From positions 1-64,000 of the forward strand of contig NZ_NUNF01000032.1 in assembly GCF_002585305.1 (NCBI RefSeq): a DNA stretch of 64,000 nucleotides, read 5' to 3'. Origin of the DNA: Bacillus sp. AFS037270 (GTDB taxonomy: Bacteria; Bacillota; Bacilli; Bacillales_B; DSM-18226). The notes beneath the pieces were generated by a model. The model saw only the letters and a list, made by a program, of their open reading frames with translations. It was not told the DNA's origin and did not search any database. Every line of letters starts with the position of its first letter. Within the stretch, counting starts at the first letter, position 1. The position numbers and the translations under genes are program-made. Below, piece by piece: positions 1 through 31,841 of this stretch.

Positions 1-182
1 TTTATTGAGGGAGGTTTGTTTAAGTGTAATTTTTCACAAATTGCATTTTTATTTTAAGTTAAGACAATTTTTCCAGGTTAATGCATCTTCCAGCAATTAT
101 CTATATCCTCTACACAGATTGACCCTACCATTAGGCAGGGGATGTATGTCTTTATCGTTTACCCCTTACGGAAATTCTACCG

Positions 183-16875: not shown

Positions 16876-18522
16876 ATGAATGGTGCTCAGGCAGTCATTG
16901 AAACACTGCAACGTGAAGGAATAAAATATGTTTTTGGTTTACCAGGCACGACAATCATGCATTTAATTGATGCTTTATATGACAAAGATGAGATCCGCTA
17001 TATATCAGTCCGTCATGAACAAATAGCTGCGTTCATGGCGGATGGATTTGCAAGATCAACAGGTACAATTGGTGTCTGTATGGCTTCAAGAGGCCCCGGT
17101 GCAGCAAACCTAACCATCGGCATTCATAATGCATACGCAGAGTCAGTTCCTATCTTAGCAATAATAGGGCAAGTTTCGGATGAAATTTACTATCGAGATG
17201 CCTTTGAAGAAATGGATCTTGTGAAATTTTTTGAACCTATCACAAAATGGTCAATTGAAATCCACCAAACGCCCAGAATTCCGGAATTACTGCAAAGAGG
17301 GATAAAAACAGCACTTTCAGGCAGACCAAGGCCTGTAGCTATTTCAATTCCGCTTGATGTTCAAATTAGTGAAATAAAAGAATTTTCGTTCAGGCCTGTT
17401 AATCGATTAAATCATCGTGTTATTGATGTAAACGGTATCAAACAAGCGGTTGAAATACTTAAAGACGCCAAGGATCCTGTGATCATTGCAGGTGGCGGGG
17501 TAGCGATTTCAAATGGGACAAATGAGTTGGTTCAGTTGGCAGAGCAGCTTGCCATCCCTGTAATAACCACTTGGAGAAAACCGAATGTCTTTCCGAATGA
17601 TCATTCCCTTTATTTTGGGAATGTGGGACCAGGATGTGCCCCTGTTAGTTGGGAATTAATGAAAGAAGCGGATGTTATATTAGCCGTTGGTATGCATTTC
17701 TCGGAATTTTCAACGAATAGGTGGACAGCAATTTCGAAGAAAACAAAATTAATTCATATTGATATGGATGAAAATGAATTAGGGAAGATATACATTCCTG
17801 AGATAGGGTTATTGGGGGATGCAAAGGAGACCATGAAAGTAATCATTGACCAGTTGGACGGCTATACAGAAAAGATAGACAACCGGGCAAACTTCAACAA
17901 GTATTTACCTAATTATCTAGAGGAAACGAAGTTATCAGAGGTGACAAGCGATTGTCCTGTTTCCTCCATTTCTGCTCTCGAATCTATCAACCGTTTAATA
18001 AATGAAAAAGATGTCATTGTAGTGGAAGATGCAGCTACCTTCGGGCCATGGCTTACTCGTTATGGAAAATTTAAACCAGGTAACTTTTATGCAGCCGCGG
18101 GTGGATCCATGGGGTGGGGATTTCCTGCATCCATGGGGATTAAACTTGCTAATCCTGAAAGAATCGTTTTGAACGTCACAGGAGATGGAGCATTCTGGAT
18201 GGTAGCTCAAGATTTAGAGACGGCAGTCAGAGAAAATATTCCTGTTGTCAATATTGTTTTAAATAATTTCTGTTTTGGTAATACAAGGGATAGGCAAAAA
18301 ACAGCTCATGATGGGCGATATATAGGGATCCATTACAATAATATTGACTTTGCTGAATTTGCCCGTTTACTTGGTGCTTACGGCGAGCGGGTAGAATCTG
18401 CAGAACAATTAGACGGAGCAATAAATCGCGCAATCGCTTCTGGTAAACCTGCAATTATTGATGTCATCCAGGATCAATGGGAAGGATTGCCTCCAGGTGC
18501 AATACCGGCCACTGCTAGGTAA
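16876..18522 (+). CDS. ThDP-dependent enzyme, acetolactate synthase/benzoylformate decarboxylase-like
   Basis: A 548-residue three-domain thiamine diphosphate enzyme. The PYR domain has GLPGTTIMHLIDAL and the activating glutamate in SVRHEQIAAFM (Glu48). The central domain has DPVIIAGGGVAIS. The PP domain has the cofactor motif GDGAFWMVAQDLE through to NNFCFGNTR. Members decarboxylate or ligate 2-oxo acids. In this operon, with a TRAP importer before it and an aldehyde dehydrogenase after, decarboxylation of an (aryl) 2-oxo acid to an aldehyde is the simplest reading. A true acetolactate synthase is less likely, since no ilvN regulatory subunit is present. Confidence 0.8.
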   Translation: MNGAQAVIETLQREGIKYVFGLPGTTIMHLIDALYDKDEIRYISVRHEQIAAFMADGFARSTGTIGVCMASRGPGAANLTIGIHNAYAESVPILAIIGQVSDEIYYRDAFEEMDLVKFFEPITKWSIEIHQTPRIPELLQRGIKTALSGRPRPVAISIPLDVQISEIKEFSFRPVNRLNHRVIDVNGIKQAVEILKDAKDPVIIAGGGVAISNGTNELVQLAEQLAIPVITTWRKPNVFPNDHSLYFGNVGPGCAPVSWELMKEADVILAVGMHFSEFSTNRWTAISKKTKLIHIDMDENELGKIYIPEIGLLGDAKETMKVIIDQLDGYTEKIDNRANFNKYLPNYLEETKLSEVTSDCPVSSISALESINRLINEKDVIVVEDAATFGPWLTRYGKFKPGNFYAAAGGSMGWGFPASMGIKLANPERIVLNVTGDGAFWMVAQDLETAVRENIPVVNIVLNNFCFGNTRDRQKTAHDGRYIGIHYNNIDFAEFARLLGAYGERVESAEQLDGAINRAIASGKPAIIDVIQDQWEGLPPGAIPATAR

Positions 18523-18564
18523 TTGGTATAAGAGGATTACAGAATTGAAGAAATTTTAGTTGAC

Positions 18565-18604
18565 TCGACGTTTAACTATATTAAGTATTAAACGTCGATT
18601 TCTT
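18565..18604 (+). terminator. terminator of the catabolic operon
   Basis: A perfect 11-bp stem, TCGACGTTTAA/TTAAACGTCGA, with a 12-base loop and a trailing TTTCTT, 42 bases after the ThDP enzyme gene. Confidence 0.6.
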
Positions 18605-18696
18605 AAAACAGTTAATATTCCTAGTGTAAGGGGGTTATAGGAAATATGGAAAAGCGTATTCAAAATTTAGAATGAATAGAGATGGGGTAAATAAGA

Positions 18697-19641
18697 ATGG
18701 GTGAAACGTTGGCATTACTTGCTTTAGTTTTATTTTCTTCTAACATTATTTTGACGAAGTTAGCAACTGCTCGACTAGATATTAATATTGGTTTTCTTAT
18801 TTCTGTATGGGTAAATGTTCTTTTTGCTGCAGTTTTATTTTCAATCCAATTGTTTTTTTTTAATGAAGGCAAATTTGAATGGCATACAAAGGGATTTTTA
18901 TTGTTTTTAACTGCAGGGTTTTTCAGTACCTATATGGGACGTTGGTTTTTCTTTGAAACTATTGATAGGTTAGGTCCCTCGCGTGCCAGTACATTTCAAG
19001 TAAGTAATCCTATGTTTACAACCATTATTGCATGGCTATTCATGGGGGAGAAATTAAGTTGGGTTGATTTGCTTTCAGTTGGTGTAATTTTATTTGGCTT
19101 GTTCTTAGTTTCCTATGTTGCGAAAAGTTCAGCAAAAAGAGAGATTGCAGCAAGTAAAGAAAGTTTAATGGTGCAGACTTCTAGGGAATCGTCGAAAATT
19201 TGGCTACTAAAATCAGGAATATTACTTGCTTTTTTGAGTTCCCTTTCCTATGCGATTGGAAACGTTCTTAGAGGAGCAGCCATTAAAAATTGGAATGAAC
19301 CAATTCTAGGAGGGATCTTTGGTGCAGTGTTGGGCTTGATTCTGTTTTCGATAACCAATAAAAGTGCCCGTTCATTCTTGGGCCAGATTAAAGAGTCTGA
19401 CCCAAAGGGCGTATTATTGTATGTCACAAGTGGTGTAATAACCATTTCAGCTCAAATCTCAGTCATTGCTTCTATGCGATATATTCCTATTTCTATTGCA
19501 AATCTTATAACAATGTCTACACCCGTTATTGTGACACCGATTAGTTTTTTCCTCTTTAAGAATCAAGAAGGTATTACCTACCGGACGCTAGCGGGGACAA
19601 TTTTAGTACTTACAGGTATATTTTTAATCATTCTGGTTTAA
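18697..19641 (+). CDS. EamA-family (DMT) permease
   Basis: A 314-residue membrane protein with about ten helices in two EamA repeats. The first ends with TTIIAWLFMGEKLSWVD and the second with TPVIVTPISFFLFKNQEGI. A charged loop around residues 145-175 separates them. GAGATGGGG lies before the ATG at 18697. It follows a terminator, so it may be transcribed separately from the catabolic genes, but it is enclosed between them and the LysR regulator. It could export a toxic intermediate or import a substrate. The cargo is unknown. Confidence 0.75.
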   Translation: MGETLALLALVLFSSNIILTKLATARLDINIGFLISVWVNVLFAAVLFSIQLFFFNEGKFEWHTKGFLLFLTAGFFSTYMGRWFFFETIDRLGPSRASTFQVSNPMFTTIIAWLFMGEKLSWVDLLSVGVILFGLFLVSYVAKSSAKREIAASKESLMVQTSRESSKIWLLKSGILLAFLSSLSYAIGNVLRGAAIKNWNEPILGGIFGAVLGLILFSITNKSARSFLGQIKESDPKGVLLYVTSGVITISAQISVIASMRYIPISIANLITMSTPVIVTPISFFLFKNQEGITYRTLAGTILVLTGIFLIILV

Positions 19642-19658
19642 ATCATTTTTTGTTAGGT

Positions 19659-20588
19659 TTACAGTTGGTGATTTATTTCTACTGTTTCTTCTAAAATATA
19701 ATTTATGAAATTCTCCATTGTAGGGGAAATATATGCTCCTTCTTTTATTATTAAATAATATTCTAGAGCGGGATGGTATTCATGAATTAATGGAACTGGT
19801 ACTAATTCTCCGTTTGATAATTCCCTATCAATCGTTATTCGCGGCAGGAAGGCAATACCTAATTGGGAGATAACAGCCATTTTAATTGATTCAATATCAT
19901 CAAGGCGCATATTGAATTTATATTCACTTGTATCTAATCCAAGCTTGCCAAGTTCGTTTTTAATAATTTCTCCATGAGAGGTCCTTGGTAAGGAGCCTAC
20001 CAAAGGGGCTTTTTGTAACACATCCTGAACTGTTCCTTGCCATGTTGCCCACTGGGATCCCCCAGCACAAACTAAAGTCCAGTAATCCTTCCGTATTAGG
20101 TGTTTTTTAAAGTCAGAAGGAATGGTTTGATCCTTTGACCAAACGCCAAAACCAACATTTACTTTCTCGTCCAACACATATCGTGAAATTTTTTCTGTAT
20201 TATCATAAGTTGTAGATAATTCGACATTAGGGTATCGCTGTATAAATTTTAGGATGAATTTAGGTAGTAAATAACGGCCAAATGGGCGATTACTACCAAT
20301 AGCAATTTGTCCTGTTTCTCCGGAGACTAGTTCTTTAACGGATGAACGCAATCTTTTGTCAAGGCTAAGTAAATTTGATGCATACTGCGCGACATGTTTG
20401 CCAACACTAGTAAGCTCAATATTATTTCCTTTCCTTACAAATAACTTTGCACCCAATTTTTCTTCCAGGGATTTTATTTGTAGACTTAGAGCTGGTTGTG
20501 TCATATGTAGACTTCTTGCCGCTTGAGAATAACTGTGATGTTCCACTACACAACAAAACAATTGTAATTGATGCAGATTTAAAGGCAT
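19659..20588 (-). CDS. LysR-family transcriptional regulator
   Basis: About 309 residues. The N-terminal winged HTH reads HQLQLFCCVVEHHSYSQAA and SLHMTQPALSLQIKSLEEKL, followed by a linker helix and a periplasmic-binding-like effector domain. An upstream ATG at 20678 would add 30 atypical residues; ATG 20588 matches the family, with GAGG 11 bases upstream (a TTG at 20594 is also possible). It is divergent from the aldehyde dehydrogenase gene across a 262-base intergenic region with a striking palindrome. It probably activates that gene and perhaps the TRAP/Rieske operon in response to a pathway compound. Confidence 0.85.
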   Translation of the reverse strand: MPLNLHQLQLFCCVVEHHSYSQAARSLHMTQPALSLQIKSLEEKLGAKLFVRKGNNIELTSVGKHVAQYASNLLSLDKRLRSSVKELVSGETGQIAIGSNRPFGRYLLPKFILKFIQRYPNVELSTTYDNTEKISRYVLDEKVNVGFGVWSKDQTIPSDFKKHLIRKDYWTLVCAGGSQWATWQGTVQDVLQKAPLVGSLPRTSHGEIIKNELGKLGLDTSEYKFNMRLDDIESIKMAVISQLGIAFLPRITIDRELSNGELVPVPLIHEYHPALEYYLIIKEGAYISPTMENFINYILEETVEINHQL

Positions 20589-20721
20589 GTCCAATGTATC
20601 CTCATCTCCCGAATTTTTTCTATTAGACTTATAGTAAAAAATTTGTAAGTTATATATAAAAATATATATGTTTATCAATAAATTGATATTTTTATTATAT
20701 CGGAAAGGTAAGTAGAAAACT

Positions 20722-20760
20722 ATTTATATTTAAAATATTTTAAATATTTTAAATATAAAT
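20722..20760. promoter_or_regulatory. 39-base near-perfect AT palindrome, candidate LysR operator
   Basis: The stretch reads the same on both strands except at its centre, with arms built from ATTTATATTTAAAATATTT. It lies midway between the divergent LysR and aldehyde dehydrogenase genes, about 90 bases from the latter. LysR proteins bind interrupted dyads (T-N11-A), so this is a good operator candidate. It contains only A and T, so chance symmetry is easier than in mixed sequence. Confidence 0.5.
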
Positions 20761-20850
20761 TCTGATTACTTTAAACACATTTTTTAGAAAAATAATAGAA
20801 TTGCTGCTTTTTGAAACAGTTGAAAGACAGCAATCTGGTAGGAGGAAAAT

Positions 20851-22359
20851 ATGAGTACACTAGGAGAAACGATAGATAAAACAGAAATAGAAGATCTTAA
20901 AAACGAGCTATTACAAAGGGATTATCGGATGCTGATAGGAGGTCAATTGGTAGCTGCACAAGGCGGGGAAACATATGAAACCTACAGTCCTTCTACAGGG
21001 GAGCTCCTTGCTTCTATCCCATTTGCCCAAAGCACAGATGTTAATGCAGCGGTCGATTCGGCCAAAAAAGCTTTTGAATATTGGAGAAATATTCCTCCAC
21101 TAAATCGGGCAAGGATGTTAAAAACATTGGTAAAAGAATTTAAGAAAAGAGCTCAACAATATGCTGTTCTTGATGCCATAAATGGAGGAAACCCGGTTAC
21201 TGCAATGCTGTCAGATGTATTTAGTGCAGCAGAAATGATGGAATATGTCATTGGTATGGTTACTGAATTAAAAGGTGAGACCATCCCATCTTCTGGAATC
21301 AACTGGCATCTTACTCGTCGAGAACCATATGGGGTCATTGGAAAAATTATCCCTTACAATCATCCGATTATGTTTACAGCCGAAAAAATAGTTGCTCCTT
21401 TAATTGCAGGAAATACGGTTGTATTAAAAGCTCCAGATCAAGCTCCACTCTCATCCCTTCTTTTTGCAGAGATTTGTCAGTCTATCCTTCCGCCAGGCGT
21501 GGTTAATATCTTAACCGGGGATGGTCCGATTACTGGTAATGCTCTTGTTTGTCATCCTGATGTTAAGCGTATAGCACTTATTGGAAGTGTTGGGACAGGG
21601 AAAGCGATTTTAAAGTCAGCTGCTGATGTTGCAATTAAGCATGTTTCTTTGGAATTGGGTGGAAAGAATGCCATGATTGTTTATCCTGATGCTGATCTAG
21701 AAAAAGCAGTAGACGGTGCTGTAAGGGGTATGAACTTTATGTGGTGTCAAGGTCAGTCATGTGGTTCTACATCAAGATTATTTTTACATGAAGACATTCA
21801 TGATGAATTTATTGAGCGATTAATTAGAAGAGTGGGTCAAATCAAGTTAGGATTGCCGATCGATCCTGAAACTGAAATGGGATGCCTTGTCTCACAGCAA
21901 CAATTTGACAGAGTAATGGGATATATTAAATCAGGGTTAGAAGAAGGTGCAATGCTGAAGGCAGGGGGAGAAAAACCAAAGGGGCACATTTTTCAGAAAG
22001 GTCATTTTGTAGAACCAACTGTTTTTACAAACGTTACTGAGGATATGAAAATTTTTAAAGAGGAGATTTTTGGCCCTGTTCTATCCGTAATATGTTGGAA
22101 TGAAAAAGAAGAAGTGATCCGACAAGCAAATGCTCTTCCTTATGGACTAACTGCGTCCATCTGGACCACCCATTTACCTACGGCATTTGATACTATTGAT
22201 AGAATCGAAGCAGGATTTATCTGGGTTAATGGAAGTTCAAGGCATTTTCTAGGGGTGCCATATCAAGGATTTAAGGATAGTGGGATCGGGTCTGAAGAAG
22301 GTTTAGATGAGATCTTGAGTTATACACAAGTGAAAACTGTAAACATCATGATGGAGTAA
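20851..22359 (+). CDS. NAD(P)-dependent aldehyde dehydrogenase
   Basis: A 502-residue aldehyde dehydrogenase of normal length. Motifs include GVIGKIIPYNHPIM, cofactor-binding GSVGTGKAI, the general-base glutamate in SLELGGKN and the catalytic cysteine in QGQSCGST (about residue 300). EEIFGPVLSV and FKDSGIGSEEGLDEI close the fold. AGGAGG precedes the ATG. It probably oxidises the aldehyde made by the ThDP enzyme of the neighbouring operon to the acid. The divergent LysR gene is the likely regulator. The similarity is broad (betaine-aldehyde to aromatic-aldehyde type), so the substrate is inferred from context only. Confidence 0.85.
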   Translation: MSTLGETIDKTEIEDLKNELLQRDYRMLIGGQLVAAQGGETYETYSPSTGELLASIPFAQSTDVNAAVDSAKKAFEYWRNIPPLNRARMLKTLVKEFKKRAQQYAVLDAINGGNPVTAMLSDVFSAAEMMEYVIGMVTELKGETIPSSGINWHLTRREPYGVIGKIIPYNHPIMFTAEKIVAPLIAGNTVVLKAPDQAPLSSLLFAEICQSILPPGVVNILTGDGPITGNALVCHPDVKRIALIGSVGTGKAILKSAADVAIKHVSLELGGKNAMIVYPDADLEKAVDGAVRGMNFMWCQGQSCGSTSRLFLHEDIHDEFIERLIRRVGQIKLGLPIDPETEMGCLVSQQQFDRVMGYIKSGLEEGAMLKAGGEKPKGHIFQKGHFVEPTVFTNVTEDMKIFKEEIFGPVLSVICWNEKEEVIRQANALPYGLTASIWTTHLPTAFDTIDRIEAGFIWVNGSSRHFLGVPYQGFKDSGIGSEEGLDEILSYTQVKTVNIMME

Positions 22360-22383
22360 AGAATTTTAGGGAGGTGGTGAAGC

Positions 22384-22476
22384 ATAGATACGGTATTTTT
22401 AAACGAGTTCGTGGAGAAGTTTGGAAACAGGCTGGAAATTCTAAATAAGATAATCGAGTCATATGTAAGAGATTAA
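22384..22476 (+). other. short ORF with ATA in the start position, possible remnant
   Basis: Downstream of the aldehyde dehydrogenase, GGGAGGTGGTG is followed at normal spacing by ATA and then 29 sense codons (DTVFLNEFVEKFGNRLEIL and more) ending in TAA. The composition is protein-like. Either a short gene has lost its ATG by one base change, an unusual start is used, or only a GTG at 22411 works. The function is unknown. Confidence 0.25.
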
Positions 22477-22568
22477 GATAGAATCATCCTTATTTGACGT
22501 TTTATTCCAATAAATTTATTGAAAGTAAAACGAGGTATAAAAAAGGTATCTGATTAATTAATAAAATC

Positions 22569-22604
22569 AAAAGGCCAATCCAGTAATTTGTAGATTGGCC
22601 TTTT
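22569..22604. terminator. bidirectional terminator
   Basis: A perfect 12-bp stem AAAAGGCCAATC/GATTGGCCTTTT with A and T tracts on both sides. It serves the aldehyde dehydrogenase transcript and the convergent MFS operon. Confidence 0.85.
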
Positions 22605-22648
22605 AAAAATTGAAATTACCCTTTATAACTCGTATACTATGCTTGTTT

Positions 22649-23893
22649 CTATTTTACTACTTCAACAGTGGAAGGCCCAGATTCTTTTACCCGTAAAAGT
22701 TTATCAGAAACAATAAACAAAATTATCGATCCAGCCGCAATGATTAAACCAATCGCATGAAATACAAGGGATGGGGTGACCATTTCACCTATATAGCCAA
22801 TAATCGCATATATAACAAACCCAAATATTGACGTTAGCGTATAAATCATACTGTTTACTCGGCCTTGGTAATGTGTTTCCACCTGTTCATGGATCAGCGT
22901 ACTATACAGGGTACGTGCCTGTAGGAGGGTCGTTCCAAACAAGAGAAAAATAGCGCCTCCAGAAAAAATTCCTTGCATGAAAGGGATCAAGCCAAAGAAA
23001 ACTCCCATCAGCAGCAGGCTGATCGACATAAAATGTTTCCTGCCAAACCAAGTAACCATAGTGGTTAAAGTTATTCCTCCAAGAATAGCTCCCCAGGCAA
23101 AAAAAGAATCTAGTAATCCCAAAATCTCTGGTCCCATTTTCATATCATTTCGAATCAAGGGGACACTAAGAATATTATAAATTTGAATCGTGAATTCTGT
23201 TACGGCAACCAAAACAGCCATTTTTAAAATCATTTTATTTTCCCTTACATACTGCATGCCATCCTTTAATTCACCGAAAAATGAGTCATATCCTTTTCCA
23301 ATTTTTGATTTAGGATTGACAATCCCTTTTCGCGTAAAGTAGATAATAAAACTAGAAGCAAATGCAAGTATGGAGTTAGCTAGAATGGTATTGGCTCCCC
23401 CAATTAAGTGAAGCAAAAACCCGGCAATAACCGACCCAATCAGCATTCCTAATTGCATAGCTACACCGGCCATGGAGTTTGCCGATAGTAATTGATCTTT
23501 GGTTAGCATTTCCCTCATGAGCCCTTTTGAGGCAGGATAATATAAGCGGTCTGCTATGGACATTAGCAACGAAATGCCATATAGGACGGAGAGATGAAAG
23601 GTCCCTGTCAGTAAAAGAATCGGAACAGTAAGCAATAGAATCCCTTTTAAGAGTTGAATGACGACTACTATCAATCTTCTATCCCAATTATCTATTAACA
23701 CCCCAATGAAGGGTGAGAGGATAATGACTGGTAAGGTTGACAAGGAGAACAACCAGCCCAAGGAAGAAGTTGATTCCGTTAGGTCCAGTACTAACCAAGA
23801 CATGGTGAATAAGTGAATACCCAAACCAATGTTAGAAAGAGTATGACTGAATAGATAGAGAAAGAAAGGCCTGAACTTTATTAACTGGAACAT
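22649..23893 (-). CDS. MFS transporter, last gene of the AlaRS-like/ATP-grasp operon
   Basis: A 414-residue major facilitator protein with 12 predicted helices. The sequences LGWLFSLSTLPVIILSPFIGVLIDNWDRR (loop 2-3 region) and SANSMAGVAMQLGMLIGSVIAG resemble the MFS-3/MacB-like antibiotic and enterobactin exporter branch. AGAGGT lies before the ATG at 23893. The gene overlaps the end of the ATP-grasp gene by 13 bases, implying translational coupling. It is the likely exporter of the product made by the two upstream enzymes. The terminator at 22569-22604 follows. Confidence 0.8.
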   Translation of the reverse strand: MFQLIKFRPFFLYLFSHTLSNIGLGIHLFTMSWLVLDLTESTSSLGWLFSLSTLPVIILSPFIGVLIDNWDRRLIVVVIQLLKGILLLTVPILLLTGTFHLSVLYGISLLMSIADRLYYPASKGLMREMLTKDQLLSANSMAGVAMQLGMLIGSVIAGFLLHLIGGANTILANSILAFASSFIIYFTRKGIVNPKSKIGKGYDSFFGELKDGMQYVRENKMILKMAVLVAVTEFTIQIYNILSVPLIRNDMKMGPEILGLLDSFFAWGAILGGITLTTMVTWFGRKHFMSISLLLMGVFFGLIPFMQGIFSGGAIFLLFGTTLLQARTLYSTLIHEQVETHYQGRVNSMIYTLTSIFGFVIYAIIGYIGEMVTPSLVFHAIGLIIAAGSIILFIVSDKLLRVKESGPSTVEVVK

Positions 23894-25122
23894 ACGATTA
23901 CCTCTTCACTTTGCTCATCTTCTATGACAAATTGGATCTTGCTAAGTGCAAGCTGGGCATTACTCATGGCGAGATCTGTGTTTTCTCCTGTGGCCAGTAC
24001 GCAAGCGGAACGGGAGAAGGAGTCTTTCATACCAGTAATCTTATTTCCTTGTTTTTGCAAGATTTCAACTCTTGCAACACCTGCTGTCGATTTAGCTTCT
24101 TCTTCACCTATTATTTCTTTCACCAGCCCAGACGTAGAAGGCGTTCCATACCAAATAGCGGCTGATTTTTTCATGTTTGGTGTTTGTGGAATTTCGTTTA
24201 TGATGCTTTCACCCATCGCTTGTTTTGCCCATAAATCTAGTAAATCTACACCACTTGCCATATTGATTAACTCTGGAATATAGTCACCACCTAAGCGGGT
24301 ATGTGTTTCTATGATTTTAGGACCATCTATCGTCAAAATGATTTCAGTGTGGCTTGGGCCATGCGTAATTCCGATAGAGGTGAGGGCGTGTTGAACAAAT
24401 TCATGAATGGAGCGTTCATAATCAGAATAGACCCCTTGATATGGAAGTCGATGACCGACTTCAACGAAATGTTGTTCCTCTTTAAATTTTTCAGTGATAC
24501 ACATGATTTTGTGAATTCCGTTTTCTGAAAAGGCTTCAACACTAAATTCTTTTCCAGCTAAGTATTCTTCTACAATCATACCGGAGCCAAAATCAGCGGT
24601 TTGATACCAGCCTAACGCATGTTCTAATTCCTCCGCATTTTCTATTTTAGCTACACCAATACTTCCCCAGCCATCTACTGGTTTAAGAATAATAGGATAA
24701 CCATGCTTTTGGGCGAAACTAGAAATCTCATCAGTTGTGTTAACAATGGCATTTTTTGTTTTATCAACACCATATTCTCTTAGGATGGACCTCATTAAGA
24801 TTTTGTTGCGGGTTCTCTCGATCACCTTTGGTTCTAAATAAAATAATTGTAGTTCTAGCGCAATATAAGCTGCCTTTTCTTGATCCATTTCATGAAAGCA
24901 AGCTATGCCATCAAAAGGGTCAATGTTATGGAAGAAGGCAGCAATCTCCAGCCACTCATTCATACTATTATCTTTTGGCACACCAATGACACGATGGTAG
25001 GTACCATTCTCATTAGATTTAATTTCAGTCGATACGTTGATCAGTGTCATTTTTGCCCCCAATTTTTTTAACCGTTTGTGCATAATACTAAATCCACCAA
25101 TTACCAAAATGTGTTTACCCAT
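23881..25122 (-). CDS. ATP-grasp domain carboxylate-amine ligase
   Basis: A 413-residue enzyme. The N-terminal pre-ATP-grasp region (HILVIGGFSIMHKRLKKLG) precedes the ATP-grasp fold, with YPIILKPVDGWGSIGVAKI near residue 140, VEEYLAGKEFSVEAFS, and the metal/ATP motif IIETHTRLGGDYIPELI around residue 270. This layout matches L-amino-acid ligases (BacD type) and related enzymes that activate a carboxylate as acyl phosphate and join it to an amine. It overlaps the AlaRS-like gene by 8 bases and the MFS gene by 13. Together they suggest synthesis and export of a small amino-acid-derived compound. Substrates are unknown. Confidence 0.8.
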   Translation of the reverse strand: MGKHILVIGGFSIMHKRLKKLGAKMTLINVSTEIKSNENGTYHRVIGVPKDNSMNEWLEIAAFFHNIDPFDGIACFHEMDQEKAAYIALELQLFYLEPKVIERTRNKILMRSILREYGVDKTKNAIVNTTDEISSFAQKHGYPIILKPVDGWGSIGVAKIENAEELEHALGWYQTADFGSGMIVEEYLAGKEFSVEAFSENGIHKIMCITEKFKEEQHFVEVGHRLPYQGVYSDYERSIHEFVQHALTSIGITHGPSHTEIILTIDGPKIIETHTRLGGDYIPELINMASGVDLLDLWAKQAMGESIINEIPQTPNMKKSAAIWYGTPSTSGLVKEIIGEEEAKSTAGVARVEILQKQGNKITGMKDSFSRSACVLATGENTDLAMSNAQLALSKIQFVIEDEQSEEVIVCSS

Positions 25123-26377
25123 GTTTAATCAATACTCCCTTCATTTTTTGGTTTTCCGATTCTTTAATAAATTGTATAGGGTCCTTAATCCGTTCCGTTT
25201 CTGAGAAAGAGTAACACTCATTTCTAAATTGATGTTTTTTTATCTTTTGCGGGCATGACAAAGAAACCCCTTCTTGCATAGCAAATTTTTTCAACCATTC
25301 AAGTTTTAGACCTCGTTCAGAATCCCACTTTTGTAATTCTTCCATAGACATATTGTTTTGATTAGAGCGTAAAGCTTTAATAAATGCTTTTTTTTCTTTT
25401 AATATTTGATTAGAAGCAGTATCAATTTTAGCAATCAATGTATCACTTAGTTTTTGGTATTCAATTTTATTTAAATAACCTAAGTGAAATAGGCATTGAT
25501 TGGCAGCTAAGATCAATTTTTCTCCTAATTCGTAAGGAAGTTTTTTACCAACAATCGTTACTGCAAGCTGACGCACCATTTTTTTCAAGGCATGACCAGC
25601 ACCTTTGGAATCAAAAGTTGCCCCATCTACCAACAACGCAACAATTGATCTTATATGATTGATCCATAAATTCTTTTCGTAAAAAGACAAATCTGCAAAA
25701 AACTCATGGTTGTTGACGATATTCGTTAAGGGAGCAAAGAATTGATCCTGATAAAAAGTAGGAAGGCCTTCTCTTACAAAGGAAAGTCGTTCCATGAAAA
25801 AAGCACTATCTACGGATAGTGTGCCGTTTGATTCTATAAAACCAATAGAACCAATTGGAATAATACCATGCCGATAGGGGTAGAACATTTTCACATAATA
25901 GCCAGTAGGTCGACCGTTTCCTAAACTGGTTTCCAAACTTTGATTCCAACTAATCACACGATTCGAAGAAATACCTAGTGAAAGAACATCATTACGTAAT
26001 CCAAGTTCATACGGTGCGAGGAAGATCAGTTTGCCTGGGTCGCCGTTAATGGCTTTGCAGACAAAATCGATAGCAAATCGTAAACCTTCTCGACCGTCAG
26101 TATCTCCGAACCGAAACATTGACAACATTACCTCAAATGATGTAGATAAGGGATACTTTCCAATCTCCTGCAGCCTTTTGCTCGAAAATATTCTTTGGGC
26201 GGCAACATAAGATGTAGGAGTATATTGTTTTTTTTCAAACAAATGCATGTGTGCCATTACCGCTGAGCCGATATAGTATGTGTCCTGGTTTTCTCTAACC
26301 AGGGACACTTCTGGCAGAACATTATAATTTCTTTCTTTTCCCAAACCAATAAACAATTCACGAATCAACTTTTCCAC
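25115..26377 (-). CDS. alanyl-tRNA-synthetase-like protein, catalytic and helical domains only
   Basis: About 420 residues, colinear by eye with the first 440 or so residues of AlaRS. Similar segments are TSFEVMLSMFRFGD (motif 2 region, AlaRS FFEMLGNFSFGD), SVDSAFFMERLSFV (motif 3, AlaRS SVDTGMGLERIAAV) and INHIRSIVALLVDGATFD (AlaRS ADHIRSCAFLIADGVMP) followed by GHALKKMVRQ (GYVLRRIIRR). The editing and C-Ala domains are absent. The motif 2 arginine seems to be leucine, and two motif 3 glycines are changed to A and F, so normal alanylation is doubtful. The start is GTG 26377 or TTG 26368; the latter has better spacing from AAGGTGG. It heads an operon with an ATP-grasp ligase and an MFS transporter. 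It may activate or bind an amino acid in a biosynthetic pathway. Confidence 0.75.
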   Translation of the reverse strand: MEKLIRELFIGLGKERNYNVLPEVSLVRENQDTYYIGSAVMAHMHLFEKKQYTPTSYVAAQRIFSSKRLQEIGKYPLSTSFEVMLSMFRFGDTDGREGLRFAIDFVCKAINGDPGKLIFLAPYELGLRNDVLSLGISSNRVISWNQSLETSLGNGRPTGYYVKMFYPYRHGIIPIGSIGFIESNGTLSVDSAFFMERLSFVREGLPTFYQDQFFAPLTNIVNNHEFFADLSFYEKNLWINHIRSIVALLVDGATFDSKGAGHALKKMVRQLAVTIVGKKLPYELGEKLILAANQCLFHLGYLNKIEYQKLSDTLIAKIDTASNQILKEKKAFIKALRSNQNNMSMEELQKWDSERGLKLEWLKKFAMQEGVSLSCPQKIKKHQFRNECYSFSETERIKDPIQFIKESENQKMKGVLIKHG

Positions 26378-26456
26378 CTTCTTTTCTAAAATCCACTATA
26401 AGTGTCATTACATTTCCTGTTTCTTTTGTTCTTTGTTGTCTTGCTTGATTATTATC

Positions 26457-26474
26457 GTAAGGTTTGAACCTTAC
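26457..26474. promoter_or_regulatory. inverted repeat in the divergent AlaRS-like/response regulator region
   Basis: GTAAGGTT and AACCTTAC form perfect 8-base arms around a TG centre, 80 bases from the AlaRS-like start. Nearby, at about 26511-26540, CTTAC, CTTTAC and CTTAAC recur at roughly 10-base steps, a pattern like the direct repeats bound by OmpR/PhoB-type regulators. The adjacent response regulator could control both directions from here. Confidence 0.4.
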
Positions 26475-26607
26475 ATGTTTATAAACGGTATCTTAAAAAT
26501 GAGAAACAATAATCTTACAAACTTTACTAAATCTTAACTTTGCTGGCAGGGATAACCGGTTGGGTATGGAATCAATAATGGATGTTTATATAGAGAGGAG
26601 TAAGTTT

Positions 26608-27315
26608 ATGGATGGAAGAGTGTTAATTATTGAGGATGATGATGCGATCGCAAGTATTATAGGGACGTATCTTAAGAAAGAGGGATTTCAAATAGAACGG
26701 GTTGATAATGGGTCTGATGCTGTAACGGTCGCGTCTACTGGTGAATGGGACTTAATATTACTTGATGTGATGCTTCCAGGATTGGATGGGTTTGAGATAT
26801 GTATGAAGCTGCGTACTATGCGTATTGATGTACCGATCATTTTTCTTACTGCTCGTGGAGAAGAAGTGGATCAAGTCTTGGGGCTTGGTCTTGGGGCAGA
26901 TGATTACATAACTAAGCCATTTTCAGGATTAGCGCTAACCGCAAGGGTGAAGGCGCATCTAAGACGTTATCGTGAATTAAAAGGAAACCAGAGCAACAAT
27001 GAAACGGATGTTTTAAGATTCTCTGATCTAGAAATCGATCTTGGGGCATGTGTGGTCCGAAGGGAAGAACAAGAAATAACGTTATCGGCTAAAGAGTATG
27101 AATTACTCCGGTTCCTCCTATCTCGCCCAGGGCAAGTATTTACGAAGGAACAAATTTTCAGCAACGTTTGGAGTGATGGCTACTATACCACCGATGATAA
27201 TACAGTAATGGTCCATATACGCCGTCTCCGTGAGAAAATAGAAATAGACCCGTCCAAACCTCGTTATATCATAACCGTACGTGGTCTCGGTTACCGCTTT
27301 GCAAAGGATGCTTAG
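26608..27315 (+). CDS. OmpR/PhoB-family response regulator
   Basis: A 235-residue two-domain regulator. The receiver has the acidic pocket IEDDDA, the phosphorylated aspartate in LLDVMLPG (Asp53), threonine in FLTARG and lysine in YITKPF (Lys103). The C-terminal winged helix carries RPGQVFTKEQIFSNVW and ITVRGLGYRF. GAGGAG is before ATG 26608; an upstream ATG at 26560 lacks one. It is divergent from the AlaRS-like operon. Its kinase partner is probably the gene at 27967, although a reverse-strand gene lies between them. Confidence 0.9.
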   Translation: MDGRVLIIEDDDAIASIIGTYLKKEGFQIERVDNGSDAVTVASTGEWDLILLDVMLPGLDGFEICMKLRTMRIDVPIIFLTARGEEVDQVLGLGLGADDYITKPFSGLALTARVKAHLRRYRELKGNQSNNETDVLRFSDLEIDLGACVVRREEQEITLSAKEYELLRFLLSRPGQVFTKEQIFSNVWSDGYYTTDDNTVMVHIRRLREKIEIDPSKPRYIITVRGLGYRFAKDA

Positions 27316-27425
27316 GGGGCACTTAAACTTGTAAGCTTCTATTTAGGTTTATGTAAGATTGTCTCCTTATTATTAATCTAAAGGAGGTGTAATGATCCTA
27401 TATGTTATGAAAGGAAAAAGTAAAA

Positions 27426-27448
27426 AAGGTATGCCCACGGCATACCTT
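27426..27448. terminator. terminator between response regulator and secreted protein genes
   Basis: A 10-bp stem AAGGTATGCC/GGCATACCTT with a 3-base loop. On the minus strand it is followed by TTTTACTTTTT, and it ends the gene at 27459-27815. It also lies downstream of the response regulator. Confidence 0.75.
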
Positions 27449-27458
27449 AAATGTTATT

Positions 27459-27815
27459 TTACCAGAAAATAGGGAGCCACGGCCAAGTCCACTGGTCGTC
27501 ATCGGGTTTACGATGCGATACTTTCCCTTCCGGTAAGTTAATTTGAAACTCAATATCGTATTCACTTTCTGATCCCTTATATGTAAGGTAAACCTGATAA
27601 CTACGGTTTCCTAAATCGATAATAACACATTTGGATCGGTCAATTTCGTAACCAGATGCGCTTAACGCTTTTTCGCCTTCCTTAAAAGTAGGTGAGGAGA
27701 ACAATAAAGCCTTGACTTGATTAATCTCACTTGGATTTTCCGCAGCAAACGCTGGACTTGCAATCATGCTTAATAGCAGGATGAGACAAATAACTAGTCG
27801 GTTTAAAGAAACCAT
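27459..27815 (-). CDS. small secreted protein of unknown function
   Basis: 118 residues. A clear signal peptide (hydrophobic stretch about residues 7-22, cleavage near AFAA) leaves a mature acidic domain of about 93 residues. It contains one cysteine (KCVIIDLG), a beta-rich stretch (YQVYLTYKGSESEYDIEFQINLPEGK) and an aromatic tail WTWPWLPIFW. I do not recognise a family. It lies opposite in direction between a response regulator and its probable kinase, so it may be a ligand, inhibitor or sensor accessory of that system. GGGGG precedes the ATG. Confidence 0.6.
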   Translation of the reverse strand: MVSLNRLVICLILLLSMIASPAFAAENPSEINQVKALLFSSPTFKEGEKALSASGYEIDRSKCVIIDLGNRSYQVYLTYKGSESEYDIEFQINLPEGKVSHRKPDDDQWTWPWLPIFW

Positions 27816-27966
27816 ATGATACCCCCATTTTGATATTTAAGAACTATTTGTTTGTTGGCCAATGTATATATTTTACAAGAAAACAAGGAAAATGTTAACA
27901 ATTATCCATTTATATTGACCTATATTTTTATTAAATCGTTAATCTTCAAAAATAGGAGTTATCAAT

Positions 27967-29403
27967 ATGCTTAAAAAACTAAAAGTTAAGATGGTTTTCG
28001 TTTATATCGCTGCGGTTACATTGGCATCCGTCTTTTTCATTTTGTTTAGTCTCCTTTATTCTTATTATCGTGGTCCATCGATGGCATATAATCTCCTTTC
28101 TGATTTAAAAAATTCAACTCTGGAAAGAGTCGAAAAGATTGAAAAGGCTATACACAATAACAATGAACCCAGTATTCAAGATATCTATATGCCAAAAAAA
28201 CTTTATCCTGGGGAACGAATTCAAGTGATTAAAATGAATGGCTCCGTTCTAGCTGATTCTGATCCGGGATTTAATAAAAACAAGGAAGATACGATCCCTT
28301 TGCAAGAAGCAGTGAATTATCTATACCTTTATTCCAAACAACTTTGGGAAGTGAAGTATGTAGATAAGTTACCTTATGTGGTTGAAATTAAAAAAGATGG
28401 ACAGATTTGGGGGTTGTATATTATTACGATTCCTTCAAGTTCAATCCCTAACGTTGATCATATAACCTCACCGCCAGGCACCCTTTTTTGGGTGATAAGT
28501 CTACTTATAACGATAATACTGATTGGTTTTATCCTTCTTTCCGTTTACGGCAGAATTTTGGTGAATCCGATATTGAAGCTATCAAGCATTGTTGAACAAT
28601 TTGCCCATGGAAATCTTAGCGCACGGGTAAATTTCTTTAAAAGAGGAGATGAAATAGGTACGCTTGGAAGGGATATAAACGTTATGGCAGATAATCTTCA
28701 AGAAGCGAATAGAAAGATTGAAGAGTTGGATAAAGCTCGTCGGTATATGGTAGCAGCTGCTTCTCATGACCTTCGTACACCACTTACAGCTGTTCTTGCC
28801 CATGCGGAAGCATTAGAAAATGGAATTACAGAAAACCCGCAACAATCGCTTTCCGTTATCCATAATAAAGGATTATTACTCAAAGGATTGATTGACGATC
28901 TATTCGAACTTGCATCTTTAGATGCACATCAAGAAGAATGGGAACGAGTTCGTTTGAATCTAACGGAATTAGTTCGACGGGAAGTAGTGGCTATTTTTCC
29001 TAAATTAGAGACGGCAGGTGTTGAGATAGATATCCATGTGCCTGAAGAGGAGTATTGGGTAAGCATCACTCCAGGGAAGATTGAGAGGGTAATCAGCAAT
29101 TTTTTAGAAAACGCTCTGAAGTATGGTGCAAGTGGAAATTGGATCATGGTTCGTGTTTGTTCTCAAAACAATTGGGTGCGTGTGGAAGTAGCGGATCGTG
29201 GATCTGGTATATCTCCTGAAGAAATAGAACGGGTATTTGATCGTTTCTATCGTTCCGATACCGCGAGAACAAGTCGAATGGGGGGGAGTGGCCTAGGATT
29301 ATCGATTGCACGTGAGATCATACTCCGTCACGATGGGAAAATCGGTGTAGATAGTCCTGAAGAAGGATATACATGCTTCTGGTTTGAATTACCTATGATA
29401 TAA
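27967..29403 (+). CDS. membrane sensor histidine kinase
   Basis: 478 residues. A first membrane helix (about 9-32) and a second (about 172-194) enclose an extracytoplasmic sensor domain of about 140 residues. HAMP (195-250), HisKA with the phosphorylated histidine in AASHDLRTPL (His267), and HATPase with NFLENALKYG, DRGSGISPEE and GGSGLGLSIA follow. AGGAG precedes the ATG. It is the likely partner of the response regulator at 26608. The whole pair is next to the AlaRS-like/ATP-grasp/MFS operon and may sense its product. Confidence 0.9.
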   Translation: MLKKLKVKMVFVYIAAVTLASVFFILFSLLYSYYRGPSMAYNLLSDLKNSTLERVEKIEKAIHNNNEPSIQDIYMPKKLYPGERIQVIKMNGSVLADSDPGFNKNKEDTIPLQEAVNYLYLYSKQLWEVKYVDKLPYVVEIKKDGQIWGLYIITIPSSSIPNVDHITSPPGTLFWVISLLITIILIGFILLSVYGRILVNPILKLSSIVEQFAHGNLSARVNFFKRGDEIGTLGRDINVMADNLQEANRKIEELDKARRYMVAAASHDLRTPLTAVLAHAEALENGITENPQQSLSVIHNKGLLLKGLIDDLFELASLDAHQEEWERVRLNLTELVRREVVAIFPKLETAGVEIDIHVPEEEYWVSITPGKIERVISNFLENALKYGASGNWIMVRVCSQNNWVRVEVADRGSGISPEEIERVFDRFYRSDTARTSRMGGSGLGLSIAREIILRHDGKIGVDSPEEGYTCFWFELPMI

Positions 29404-29536
29404 AGTGAAATAGGTTTTCCTGGACATAGAGATACATCGGTTGATTCCCATCTCGAGTTACCAATCGTATATAAAAATCTGACAGGTCTAAAAAAACTCG
29501 AATTAATCCCGTTTAAGCGTGCCATTGATAATGGGG
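29404..29536. other. short non-coding stretch after the kinase gene
   Basis: No gene, terminator or repeat was recognised. Similarity to the cspB region begins at about 29537. Confidence 0.4.
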
Positions 29537-29725
29537 CCTTTAGAAGAAGGTCAATCTATGCTTTCGATGTTGAGCAAGGTCAACGTGGAGCTTAAGCAGT
29601 AAACGTTCGTAAATATTAATAATAGCAACTCATGCAGGCTCTTTTTATTGAGTCTGTTTTTTTATTTAAAAATTTTATTTAAAAAGCATGGAACCCCACT
29701 CACGAATAATAGGGCACTTTTCTGA
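29537..29725 (+). pseudogene. truncated copy of the cspB 3' half with its terminator
   Basis: From CTTTAGAAGAAGGTCAA onward this stretch parallels 8960-9130: the last 25 or so codons of cspB, its stop region, its terminator hairpin (CAGGCTCT, TTTTTATT, GAGTCTG, then T7) and a decayed version of the following CCCTACTC inverted repeat. One base is lost in the coding part (ATGCTTTCG against GTGACTTTCG) and a stop interrupts it (GGAGCTTAA). The 5' half, leader and promoter are missing. It is a dead partial duplication about 20 kb from its source. Confidence 0.8.
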
Positions 29726-29834
29726 AATAAGAATTGCGCCCTTTATTTGGGGAAAAGCAGGAACAAAATTTGCGAAACAGAACAGTTGAAAAGGACAGGG
29801 GAGTGGAATATCGAGGTCCCTTTTTTAAGCCTTG

Positions 29835-30383
29835 TCATTTTATCGGTGCTCCTGGAGCATAGTAGTAAGGAGGCACTTTAAGCCATCCCCGTCTTTTCAC
29901 AAGTTCTTTTAGTGTTGCTCCAAACGTCATATATTCCTGTAAATATTCAAGCCATATCAAGGTAACGTCATTTCGCGCGGATTGAATGATTGCATTTGCA
30001 CAATAGGAAATTAAAATAACCATTTTAATATTAAGGCTGTTTGCAAGTTCATCATCCGTTAGCTTGACACCCAATGGAACATCGCTTGGGTTAGACTGAG
30101 GCTTGGACTCACTTAAGGGCGGAATGGGAACTCCCTCTGTTAACATAAAGGTAATAATTCGTTCTTTTTGTGATTTGAACATCTCTACGGCTTCATGGAA
30201 AGCTTTTCTTAATTCGGGGTCAGTTGTACTGTTAATCCCTGCTTCGGAATGAACTTGTTCATCTGCTAATTCGGAAAGATAGGACCAGCAGGACATGACC
30301 TCCCCCACATGTAATGGTGATTTGGGTTCATCATCAACAAATGATTGGATAACATTATTAACAGCTTTTATGACATCTGGCAT
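29835..30383 (-). CDS. DUF3231-family protein
   Basis: About 182 residues, one ferritin-like four-helix DUF3231 unit, recognisable from the closing KRRGWLKVPPYYYAPG and the central PLGVKLTDDELANSL. The ATG at 30383 has GAGGTG six bases upstream; a GTG at 30392 is less likely. DUF3231 proteins are common in spore formers and resemble coat proteins such as CotF; the precise role is unknown. It lies 10 bases behind a paralogue with about half its residues identical by eye, so the two are co-transcribed. No cysteine cluster or signal peptide is present. Confidence 0.7.
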   Translation of the reverse strand: MPDVIKAVNNVIQSFVDDEPKSPLHVGEVMSCWSYLSELADEQVHSEAGINSTTDPELRKAFHEAVEMFKSQKERIITFMLTEGVPIPPLSESKPQSNPSDVPLGVKLTDDELANSLNIKMVILISYCANAIIQSARNDVTLIWLEYLQEYMTFGATLKELVKRRGWLKVPPYYYAPGAPIK

Positions 30384-30393
30384 ACTCCTCACC

Positions 30394-30948
30394 TCACTTT
30401 TCGGTTTGTGGCAAACCTGCAGGATAATACGGTGGTGGAACCTTAAGCCATCCCCGTTTTCGCATCAATGATTTAAATGTTATTAAAAAAGTTATGTGTT
30501 CTTGTAAAAATACGGCGCACATCAGACTTACATCGCTGCGAAGGGATTGTGCCGCCGTTTCCGAACTGTTTGTAATCGCCATCGATATTTTTTTCTTAAG
30601 GCTGTTTGCAAGTTCGTTATCTGTCAGCTTAACACCCAATGGAACAGTATTCGGGTCAGAGATTGGTTTCGATTCACTCAGAGGTGGTAATGAAATCCCT
30701 TCTGACCGCATCAATGCCGAAATTCGCTCTTTCTGCGATTTTAACATGTTCACTGCTTCTTGGAGAGCTTTTCTCAATTCAGGGTCCGTTGTACTGTTAA
30801 TTCCTGCTTCAGTCTGTACTTGTGTCTCGCCAACTAAAGCTAAGAATATCCAGCATCCCATAGCCTCGCCAATGTGAAGAGGCGTTTTATTCTCATCTTT
30901 AATAAAAGACTGAACTACACTTTTCAACGCTTCCAAAAGATCAGGCAC
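30394..30948 (-). CDS. DUF3231-family protein, paralogue of the next gene
   Basis: About 184 residues with the same DUF3231 unit (RKRGWLKVPPPYYPAG end, PLGVKLTDNELANSL centre, EAGINSTTDPELRKA near the start). Alignment with its neighbour favours GTG at 30948 over the GTG at 30957; AGGTGG is correctly spaced. Longer family members contain two such units in one chain. Here they are separate genes in tandem, consistent with gene splitting or duplication. A role in the spore or in the spore coat is inferred from the family. Confidence 0.7.
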   Translation of the reverse strand: MPDLLEALKSVVQSFIKDENKTPLHIGEAMGCWIFLALVGETQVQTEAGINSTTDPELRKALQEAVNMLKSQKERISALMRSEGISLPPLSESKPISDPNTVPLGVKLTDNELANSLKKKISMAITNSSETAAQSLRSDVSLMCAVFLQEHITFLITFKSLMRKRGWLKVPPPYYPAGLPQTEK

Positions 30949-31034
30949 ATACTCCACCTTCCTCTCTTTTTTAAAATTCCCCTAAAGGGTAATTTTAATG
31001 CACAGAAGTACAGACCTTTTATTGTGTAAATCCT

Positions 31035-31616
31035 TTATTTCTTGCCTGATTGAAAAAGTAAGGACATCTGCTTGGCAAGAAATTGCGGTGTATAGGGCAA
31101 ATCCTTACGTAACCACGCTGAAATCGTGCCGATTAGAGCCGAGGAACCGTGCCAAATAGCAATATCCCTTTGAATGCCTTTAGTAGCAAGCAAATTACTA
31201 TCAATTCTCTCCGTTATCGTTTCAGTAATGATATTTAACAAACGCTCTGTAAAGATTGGAGTTCGTCTGGAACCAAGGACGACTTTATAAAATTTAGCAT
31301 TCTCAGCAATATACTCAAGCAGAGTGACAAGCTTTAACCATCCGATATCATCAGCGGAATTTTGACTAGTTGTCGTACTCTTCAAAATTGACTCAATATC
31401 CTCGGCCATTTCTTGCGCCATTTTCTCGAGCATGTCTTGAATATCATCGTAATGGAGATAAAACGTAACTCGGTTGATAGTGGCGCGCTCTGCAATCCGA
31501 TTAACCGTTATTTTATTGATTTCCATCTCCTGCAGCAAATCTATTAATGCATCCTTGATCAATTGGCGCGTACGAAGGATCCGAGGATCTACTCGTTGCT
31601 TTGCATTGTCTGACAT
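31035..31616 (-). CDS. TetR-family transcriptional regulator
   Basis: 193 residues. The N-terminal HTH reads LIDLLQEMEINKITVNRIA and ATINRVTFYLHYDD, followed by an all-helical ligand-binding domain (TetR_C_8-like). GGGTGATT precedes the ATG. It is divergent from the DHA2 efflux gene across 225 bases, where GTCTG/CAGAC (31735-31748) forms a small dyad. It is the likely local repressor of the pump, released by a drug or metabolite. Confidence 0.8.
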   Translation of the reverse strand: MSDNAKQRVDPRILRTRQLIKDALIDLLQEMEINKITVNRIAERATINRVTFYLHYDDIQDMLEKMAQEMAEDIESILKSTTTSQNSADDIGWLKLVTLLEYIAENAKFYKVVLGSRRTPIFTERLLNIITETITERIDSNLLATKGIQRDIAIWHGSSALIGTISAWLRKDLPYTPQFLAKQMSLLFQSGKK

Positions 31617-31841
31617 GTCTAATCACCCTTCCTATTATTTGGTAATTTACAAAAACTTCAGTTCTGTCTATTATTTTCGGCTTTCACAACAAAATTCAAA
31701 TAAACGATAACTAATTTACACTTCCTCAGAAATTGTCTGTTGTCAGACCAACGATCTCATTATAAAGTAATTTATACAATGTTGATTATTAAACACATTG
31801 TAAAAAAAGTCTACATTAAAAATAGAAAGGATAGAAGAGAA

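Follow-up and report, generated by a model that had tools for sequence, protein, structure and literature searches.

An operon of three overlapping genes on the minus strand of the window, that is, the whole 64,000-nucleotide stretch of Bacillus sp. AFS037270 analysed here (contig NZ_NUNF01000032.1), is real and conserved; it encodes, in order, a short protein with the fold of alanyl-tRNA synthetase (AlaRS), an ATP-grasp ligase and a transporter of the major facilitator superfamily (MFS). Judging from its residues, the AlaRS-like protein is unlikely to charge tRNA or to make an adenylate in the usual way. We tentatively propose, at slightly below an even chance, that the operon serves to make a small peptide-like compound, by means of a tRNA-dependent AlaRS-like transferase and the ATP-grasp ligase, and to export it. 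Few cases are known in which synthetase folds are reused for small-molecule amide bonds, and AcmF, of the ascamycin pathway, is the one tested AlaRS example that we found. The AlaRS-derived family described here is spread over Bacillota and tied by gene order to ATP-grasp ligases, often also to MFS transporters. These recurring units suggest an undescribed route to small peptide-like compounds, with export probable, and their AlaRS-like proteins form a new family-level variant of synthetase-derived enzymes, probably of small-molecule biosynthesis.

An AlaRS fold with a rewired catalytic site

The PF01411 profile placed the 420-residue product of the first gene in the AlaRS family (34.4 bits, cut-off 30.3; E 1.2e-8), and predicted structure models confirm the catalytic and helical fold of this class IIc synthetase. 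The protein carries neither the editing nor the C-Ala domain, having 420 residues against about 870 in a canonical AlaRS, and its matches stop before the editing domain, in agreement with a first-pass annotation made from the sequence alone. That annotation had also spoken of a synthetase paralogue, which holds for membership of the AlaRS family and not for a plain paralogue, as the residues for the alpha-phosphate and the adenine of ATP are lost. HisZ-containing entries and the PylRS fold were found among the lower-ranked structure matches; in these lists, absence of a family does not exclude that family.

Residues were compared in an alignment of 23 family members with 18 of 21 ordinary AlaRS loci, three having failed the motif filter. 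The near-copies P0001, P0002, P0004 and P0012-P0015, the fragments P0005, P0021 and P0024, and the loci L001-L003 were omitted, and the fragment P0010 was retained among the 23 family rows. At the 132 columns that are invariant in AlaRS (at least 95%), the family retains a mean of 23%. The motif 2 arginine, which in AlaRS holds the alpha-phosphate of ATP (PMC12143591; here and below, statements from cited papers refer to the available portions of their text), is Ser65 in the window and is lost in 21 of the 23 members, only the distant L049 and L050 retaining it. The adenine-stacking phenylalanine, Glu82 in the window, is retained in none. Since residues that bind the alpha-phosphate and stack the adenine are gone, tRNA charging or the usual adenylate formation is unlikely, and an ordinary second AlaRS was rejected on the loss of catalytic residues. 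The relative G001 has a separate AlaRS of 878 residues besides its AlaRS-like protein, and the sole match in this genome other than the AlaRS-like protein (E <= 0.001) lies on a different contig.

Other positions are strictly kept. Indeed, Gln61, Asp190 and the motif 3 Arg197 are retained in 23/23 members, Asp190 aligning with the AlaRS aspartate that holds the alpha-amino group (the Asp235 position of AlaRS), and 17 of the 23 have Arg68 or a lysine three places after the lost motif 2 arginine. Across 20 divergent members Gln61, Tyr161, Asp190, Arg197 and Gly356 are invariant (20/20), and thus a pocket is under constraint, though it is not the AlaRS pocket. In a tree, the 18 AlaRS fall on one side of a branch with support 100/100, with a long-branch warning.

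Recurrence with ATP-grasp and MFS genes

The second product, called a BacD-like ATP-grasp ligase in the first-pass annotation, is an ATP-grasp protein by profile search (PF13535 77.9 bits, LAL_C2 51.9 bits), of the same kind as the L-amino acid ligase BL00235, BacD and the dapdiamide synthase DdaF; its nearest solved structure by sequence is not BacD (2.2e-7) but BL00235 (3vot, 2.9e-25). It carries the expected ATP-grasp lysine, glutamate and metal-site residues, which we take to be the ones that matter. The other activating enzyme of the dapdiamide pathway is the AMP-binding ligase DdaG, whereas this operon holds only the PF01411, ATP-grasp and MFS proteins, with no AMP-binding ligase beside the ATP-grasp gene and the AlaRS-like protein instead. 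The third product is an MFS protein, as annotated: PF07690 (MFS_1, 102.5 bits) and PF05977 (MFS_3, 101.9 bits) match above cut-off, and TIGR00900 (3.9e-50) and the EntS model below theirs. It is probably an exporter, a direction taken from its relatives.

The gene order is identical in Bacillus sp. USDA818B3_A (L001) and Brevibacillus migulae (L002), where the overlaps are 8/13 and 8/16 bases, respectively. Three genes in the same order in two further genomes make the arrangement more than chance. Neither outcome that the first-pass annotation had named against itself, a failed family placement or the lack of co-occurrence elsewhere, was found, given the PF01411 match and these two loci. It is scarcely credible that the three genes are co-transcribed remnants without joint function: the proteins of L001 and L002, in the same order and overlapping, are 67-91% identical to those of the window, with open frames and catalytic residues kept, and all three genomes studied from one genus, probably Tumebacillus, have both AlaRS-like and ATP-grasp genes. 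On the side of such remnants are two reduced or decayed copies. In L021 (10091-12168; G918), no ATP-grasp gene adjoins the CYTH-like and AlaRS-like genes, which stand beside what by eye is a short radical-SAM-like remnant. L003 (NC_025041.1, 7256-9166), on the Sulfobacillus thermotolerans plasmid pL15, filed under Clostridia, has the AlaRS-like gene without its 5' part directly after an annotated Tn3-family transposase gene. It is followed by a first ATP-grasp gene split in two frames, by a second such gene and by an unknown gene for 412 amino acids.

Three protein searches over 5.8 billion sequences, with the best approximately 8,000 candidates scored in each, gave at least 9, at least 11 and at least 33 matches; 20 of the 33 were AlaRS-type and not of the family (19 of 580-648 amino acids with PF07973, plus P0031, which keeps the motif 2 arginine). 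Among the source names given for family members are Bacillus, Brevibacillus, Tumebacillus, Geobacillus, Staphylococcus, Enterococcus and Leptotrichia. Wide flanks were studied for eleven loci: L001, L002, L003, L016, L017-L019 (probably Tumebacillus), L020, L021, L049 and L050. These are not independent samples: L001 and L002 are kin of each other and of the window, L017-L019 come from one genus, and L016 and L050 from the same genome. An ATP-grasp gene adjoins the AlaRS-like gene in 10/11 loci and an MFS gene lies near it in 6/11; a hidden Markov model (HMM) from 12 non-linked ATP-grasps recovers the same ATP-grasp genes, and in the exception, L021, the sole ATP-grasp match is a long frame about 6 kb off. 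A second ATP-grasp gene is present in L003, L016-L020, L049 and L050. The co-occurrence that the first-pass annotation had proposed to survey across Bacillales was found, without the restriction to that order, as the pair occurs on the Sulfobacillus plasmid and often comes with a second ATP-grasp. ATP-grasp or MFS matches were found in 0/14 ordinary alaS loci of 15-16 kb, which replaced a first control (ATP-grasp, 0/20 canonical loci) of little force, since its loci contain hardly anything but alaS. Of the seven proteins behind the MFS HMM used for locus and control scans, five come from scanned loci, and this HMM therefore shows where such genes sit, not that they are MFS; Pfam searches cover the window, L020 and L049.

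Genome surveys, each including G001 and, for order, class and phylum, scoring the best four or fewer candidates per genome, gave matches in 1/193 genomes of the family and at least 1/397 of the order (both at 1e-20), and in at least 7/398 of the class and at least 1/398 of the phylum (both at 1e-15). Scans at 1e-12 also catch ordinary AlaRS, and the short AlaRS-like kind appeared only in G619 (twice), G900, G774 and three times in a further scan, besides a 71-amino-acid fragment in G1400. The plasmid search gave 8 records with the window AlaRS-like protein, of which only the Sulfobacillus one was taken as a family member, and none with the L020 protein. A phage origin was considered and not adopted: among phage records there were three with AlaRS-level matches to the window protein, at 22-23% identity, and none with a match to that of L020; on viral contigs 44 stretches matched a pattern and none was confirmed as family.

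The distant loci carry further genes. In L020 (9187-15992; G900), MoaA-like radical SAM, CYTH, AlaRS-like, two ATP-grasp and MFS genes form one run, the CYTH protein being cyaB-like with a match just below cut-off; this gene set hints at a nucleotide-derived product. L016 has a split pyruvate phosphate dikinase-like pair and an ATP-binding cassette transporter (by eye), and recombinase- or integrase-like genes lie near both L016 and L020 (by eye). L049 (3765-10764) and L050 (8088-12747) encode very divergent AlaRS-like proteins (373 and 367 amino acids), with two ATP-grasp genes and one MFS gene after each. The L049 AlaRS-like protein has no Pfam match, and its locus also encodes a helix-turn-helix protein resembling 5-enolpyruvylshikimate-3-phosphate synthase and a GSCFA protein. 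A defence system was considered and rejected, PADLOC having no match for the AlaRS-like and ATP-grasp proteins of the window or the AlaRS-like and CYTH proteins of L020. The L020 radical SAM protein was likewise rejected as a viperin, MoaA models matching better (9.6e-28) than viperin models (8.3e-17).

A possible tRNA-dependent route and its alternatives

Our proposal starts from the operon anatomy, the loss of ATP-site residues, the invariance of Asp190 and Arg197, the ATP-grasp residues and the repeated linkage to ATP-grasp and MFS genes, set beside what is described of AcmF. AcmF, an AlaRS-like protein, is cut down to its aminoacylation and tRNA-recognition domains; it lacks most ATP- and alanine-activating residues and uses Ala-tRNA to alanylate a nucleoside sulfamate, with an essential glutamate at the AlaRS Asp position (PMC12945691). 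It was modelled with Arg93 near the sulfamate (PMC12945691). Compared by description only, the window protein is like AcmF in its truncated architecture, in the loss of activating residues and in the acidic residue at the position of AlaRS Asp235 (Asp in the window, Glu in AcmF), and the reading of G3:U70 by Asp and Asn is absent in both (PMC12945691). Given this common architecture and these residues, aminoacyl-tRNA-dependent transfer is the reading that we favour, with a likelihood just short of even.

The truncated, rewired enzyme would then no longer activate an amino acid with ATP. It would take the aminoacyl group from an aminoacyl-tRNA charged by the ordinary cellular synthetase and move it, in the manner of AcmF, onto the amine of a small acceptor, the helical domain holding the acceptor end of the tRNA. 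The ATP-grasp ligase might form a second amide bond via an acyl phosphate and the MFS protein would export the product, for which a dipeptide-like or amino-acid-modified compound is a reasonable guess. This mechanism is plausible; tRNA use, the identity of the amino acid, the acceptor, the product, the order of steps, export and its direction are what we infer.

The relatives of the ATP-grasp protein may point to another source of activated amino acid. In the tree of ATP-grasp proteins, those of the window, L001 and L002 cluster with the Vibrio L006 protein (94/86), apart from the other AlaRS-linked type A proteins L016a and L020a; the background rows were chosen by similarity to a type A protein, and the AlaRS linkage of all type B ATP-grasps in this tree is therefore discounted as evidence. 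Ten plasmid loci were fetched for relatives of the window ATP-grasp; of the nine that are annotated, none has AlaRS-like genes, and an adenylation, AMP-binding or nonribosomal peptide synthetase (NRPS) gene is present in 4/9 (Vibrio L006, Streptomyces L007 and L052, and Rhodococcus L008). In L006 the ATP-grasp gene has as neighbours a free-standing gene for amino acid adenylation and one for an MFS protein; in L008 it comes with carrier protein, AMP-binding and MFS genes; and on the Streptomyces hirsutus plasmid L052 (NZ_CP109265.1, 1-7513) it is accompanied by an annotated class I tRNA ligase gene and by AMP-binding, GNAT, hydrolase, cupin and MFS genes. Together, the tree and these neighbours suggest that the amino-acid-supplying enzyme has been swapped around a common ATP-grasp and MFS core. 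Weakening this idea, only these four of nine loci have such a gene and the MFS proteins are distant, that of the window being 23% identical to the one of L006 and matching neither the L007 nor the L008 protein significantly. As a separate observation, L052 shows a class I synthetase-type gene in parallel use with like ATP-grasp and MFS genes.

The AlaRS-like protein might make an adenylate in its rewired site and hand it to an amine or to the substrate of the ATP-grasp ligase, as a tRNA-free stand-in for an adenylation domain. We regard this as rather unlikely, if the likeliest of the alternatives: besides the adenylation-type and MFS genes adjoining related ATP-grasps in those four loci, it would fit the universal Asp190 and motif 3 arginine, the Arg68 or lysine near the lost motif 2 arginine, the motif 2 arginine of L049 and L050, and the precedent of mycothiol synthesis, where the direct ligation of cysteine is the work of a CysRS paralogue (PMC2922099). 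It has to contend with the loss of the motif 2 arginine in 21/23 members and of the stacking phenylalanine in 23/23, and AcmF is the one tested case of what such losses meant (PMC12945691).

Other roles need no catalysis. HisZ, a HisRS paralogue, is the regulatory subunit of ATP phosphoribosyltransferase and is thought to lack charging activity. By likeness to it, as a synthetase paralogue with residue loss, the AlaRS-like protein could be a non-enzymatic subunit that regulates the ATP-grasp ligase or senses substrate for it, a role which the lost catalytic residues, the ATP-grasp linkage in 10/11 loci and the HisZ-containing fold matches would suit. This appears improbable, as the invariance of pocket-type residues in 20/20 members fits less well and goes beyond what is expected of a scaffold, and the partners vary between type A and type B ATP-grasps. 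A protective role, as a drug-insensitive AlaRS copy or a decoy against a product or toxin targeting AlaRS, has a precedent in AcmD, the extra full-length AlaRS of the acm cluster, which is a more resistant copy (PMC12945691). Here we consider it very improbable: the window protein lacks tRNA-charging residues and an editing domain, so that it is unlikely to replace AlaRS, and it is linked to ligases.

Several observations weigh against aminoacyl-tRNA-dependent transfer followed by export. The Asn/Asp pair reading G3:U70, at the columns that we take to correspond to it, is Ser257 and Ser353 in the window and mostly gone in the family, but AcmF lacks it too. The motif 3 arginine, adenine-stacking in AlaRS, is retained, and a nucleotide could therefore still be bound; it is the exception to the AcmF-type losses of activating residues. 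L049 and L050, the most distant members, are those that retain the motif 2 arginine. In eight main-clade rows mean conservation is lower in the helical domain (0.51) than in the catalytic domain (0.65), and the helical domains of the main clade have net charges between -7 and +9, which is not decisive on RNA binding. There are no tRNA genes in the window or the 11 related loci, and no full-length AlaRS gene was recognised among open reading frames (ORFs) overlapping window 17000-32000, unlike in acm. The operon has no substrate gene indicating a product. The Tumebacillus and Sulfobacillus loci have no MFS match, and 7/9 annotated plasmid loci without AlaRS-like genes have an MFS gene nearby, so that linkage to MFS genes is in part a general trait of these ATP-grasp genes.

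The family also differs from AcmF in its setting, since AcmF is partnered with AcmD and a nucleoside sulfamate in Streptomyces (PMC12945691) and the AlaRS-like proteins of Bacillota with ATP-grasp and MFS proteins, and in the loss of the motif 2 arginine in all but two members. SbzA (class I, IleRS-like) and other natural-product synthetase-like enzymes likewise reuse a synthetase fold to pass the aminoacyl group of a tRNA on to a small amine (PMC12945691), SbzA being of another synthetase class and fold. Synthetase paralogues serve non-ribosomal amide formation in MetRS-, CysRS- and SerRS-paralogue pathways, and several operons combine MetRS paralogues with ligases, of the ATP-grasp type or others (PMC2922099); these paralogues are class I or SerRS, the available portion of that paper describes no AlaRS paralogue, and it names alanyl-tRNA synthetase once, on lipid aminoacylation. 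A literature search for 'ATP-grasp' and 'alanyl-tRNA synthetase', mostly excluding subscription papers, found both combined only in PMC2922099, and no description of the AlaRS-like family was found in this literature. Pur6 is described, in the available text, as without known conserved domains (PMC11641026).

More broadly, and with somewhat less confidence than in the transfer itself, these AlaRS-derived proteins could all be aminoacyl-tRNA:amine transferases of one large family, diversified and partly mobile, which with one or two ATP-grasps and an MFS exporter would form a compact non-NRPS assembly line in Bacillota. One residue would come from the charged tRNAs of the cell, and acyl phosphates would be the route for the others. 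Where distant members have MoaA-like radical SAM, CYTH and enolpyruvyl-transferase-type genes as neighbours, their products may be aminoacyl or peptidyl nucleosides. If true, this would add a hybrid tRNA-dependent and acyl-phosphate route to peptide-like compounds, give genome mining a handle on proteins currently named 'alanine--tRNA ligase' or 'hypothetical protein', and offer a direct test of a class II synthetase site turning into a transferase.

Operon signals and neighbouring genes

The gene overlaps of 8 and 13 bases given in the first-pass annotation are exact from the ORF coordinates. The AlaRS-like gene probably starts at TTG 26368 rather than at GTG 26377, because the close relative L001 has the same TTG as its ORF start, with the GTG out of frame and inside an AGGTGG ribosome site.

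Features of the operon in the window and domains of its first product
Feature	Position	Strand	Remark
AlaRS-like gene	25115..26377	-	420 aa counted from GTG 26377; 417 aa from TTG 26368
ATP-grasp ligase gene, L-amino-acid-ligase type	23881..25122	-	413 aa
MFS transporter gene	22649..23893	-	414 aa
Overlap of AlaRS-like and ATP-grasp genes	25115..25122	-	8 bases
Overlap of ATP-grasp and MFS genes	23881..23893	-	13 bases
Shine-Dalgarno-like AAGGTGG, 5' of TTG start of AlaRS-like gene	26374..26380	-	
Shine-Dalgarno-like GGGAG, 5' of ATP-grasp gene	25135..25139	-	
Shine-Dalgarno-like GAGG, 5' of MFS gene	23901..23904	-	
Intrinsic terminator just 3' of MFS gene, operon end	22567..22606	-	16-pair stem and T-rich tail
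Palindrome 5' of AlaRS-like gene, possible operator	26457..26474	strand-neutral	16-base core 26458-26473, TAAGGTTTGAACCTTA on + strand
AlaRS-like protein, catalytic domain	residues ~1-204		numbering from GTG
AlaRS-like protein, helical domain, tRNA-recognition-type	residues ~230-377		numbering from GTG
AlaRS-like protein, family-specific tail	residues 378-420		numbering from GTG

The palindrome core is present at the equivalent place in L001 with one change (TAAGGTTCGAACCTTA at 8930), and its pattern has no match in L002, L016 or L020. Genes for an OmpR-type response regulator and a histidine kinase are divergent from the operon in the window and likewise in L001; such neighbours were not seen beside the operon of L002. 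No Rfam element reached the gathering threshold within 22000-27500, and no tandem repeats were found.

Beside the operon, window 16876-22359 holds genes for a thiamine pyrophosphate (TPP)-dependent enzyme, an EamA transporter, a LysR-like regulator (by eye) and an aldehyde dehydrogenase. The NCBIfam matches shown for the TPP-enzyme and aldehyde dehydrogenase proteins fall below curated cut-offs, and this group of genes was not seen among the L001 ORFs. Two adjoining duplicated DUF3231 genes lie at 29835-30392 and 30394-30957 of the window, and a very similar ORF pair is found in L001.

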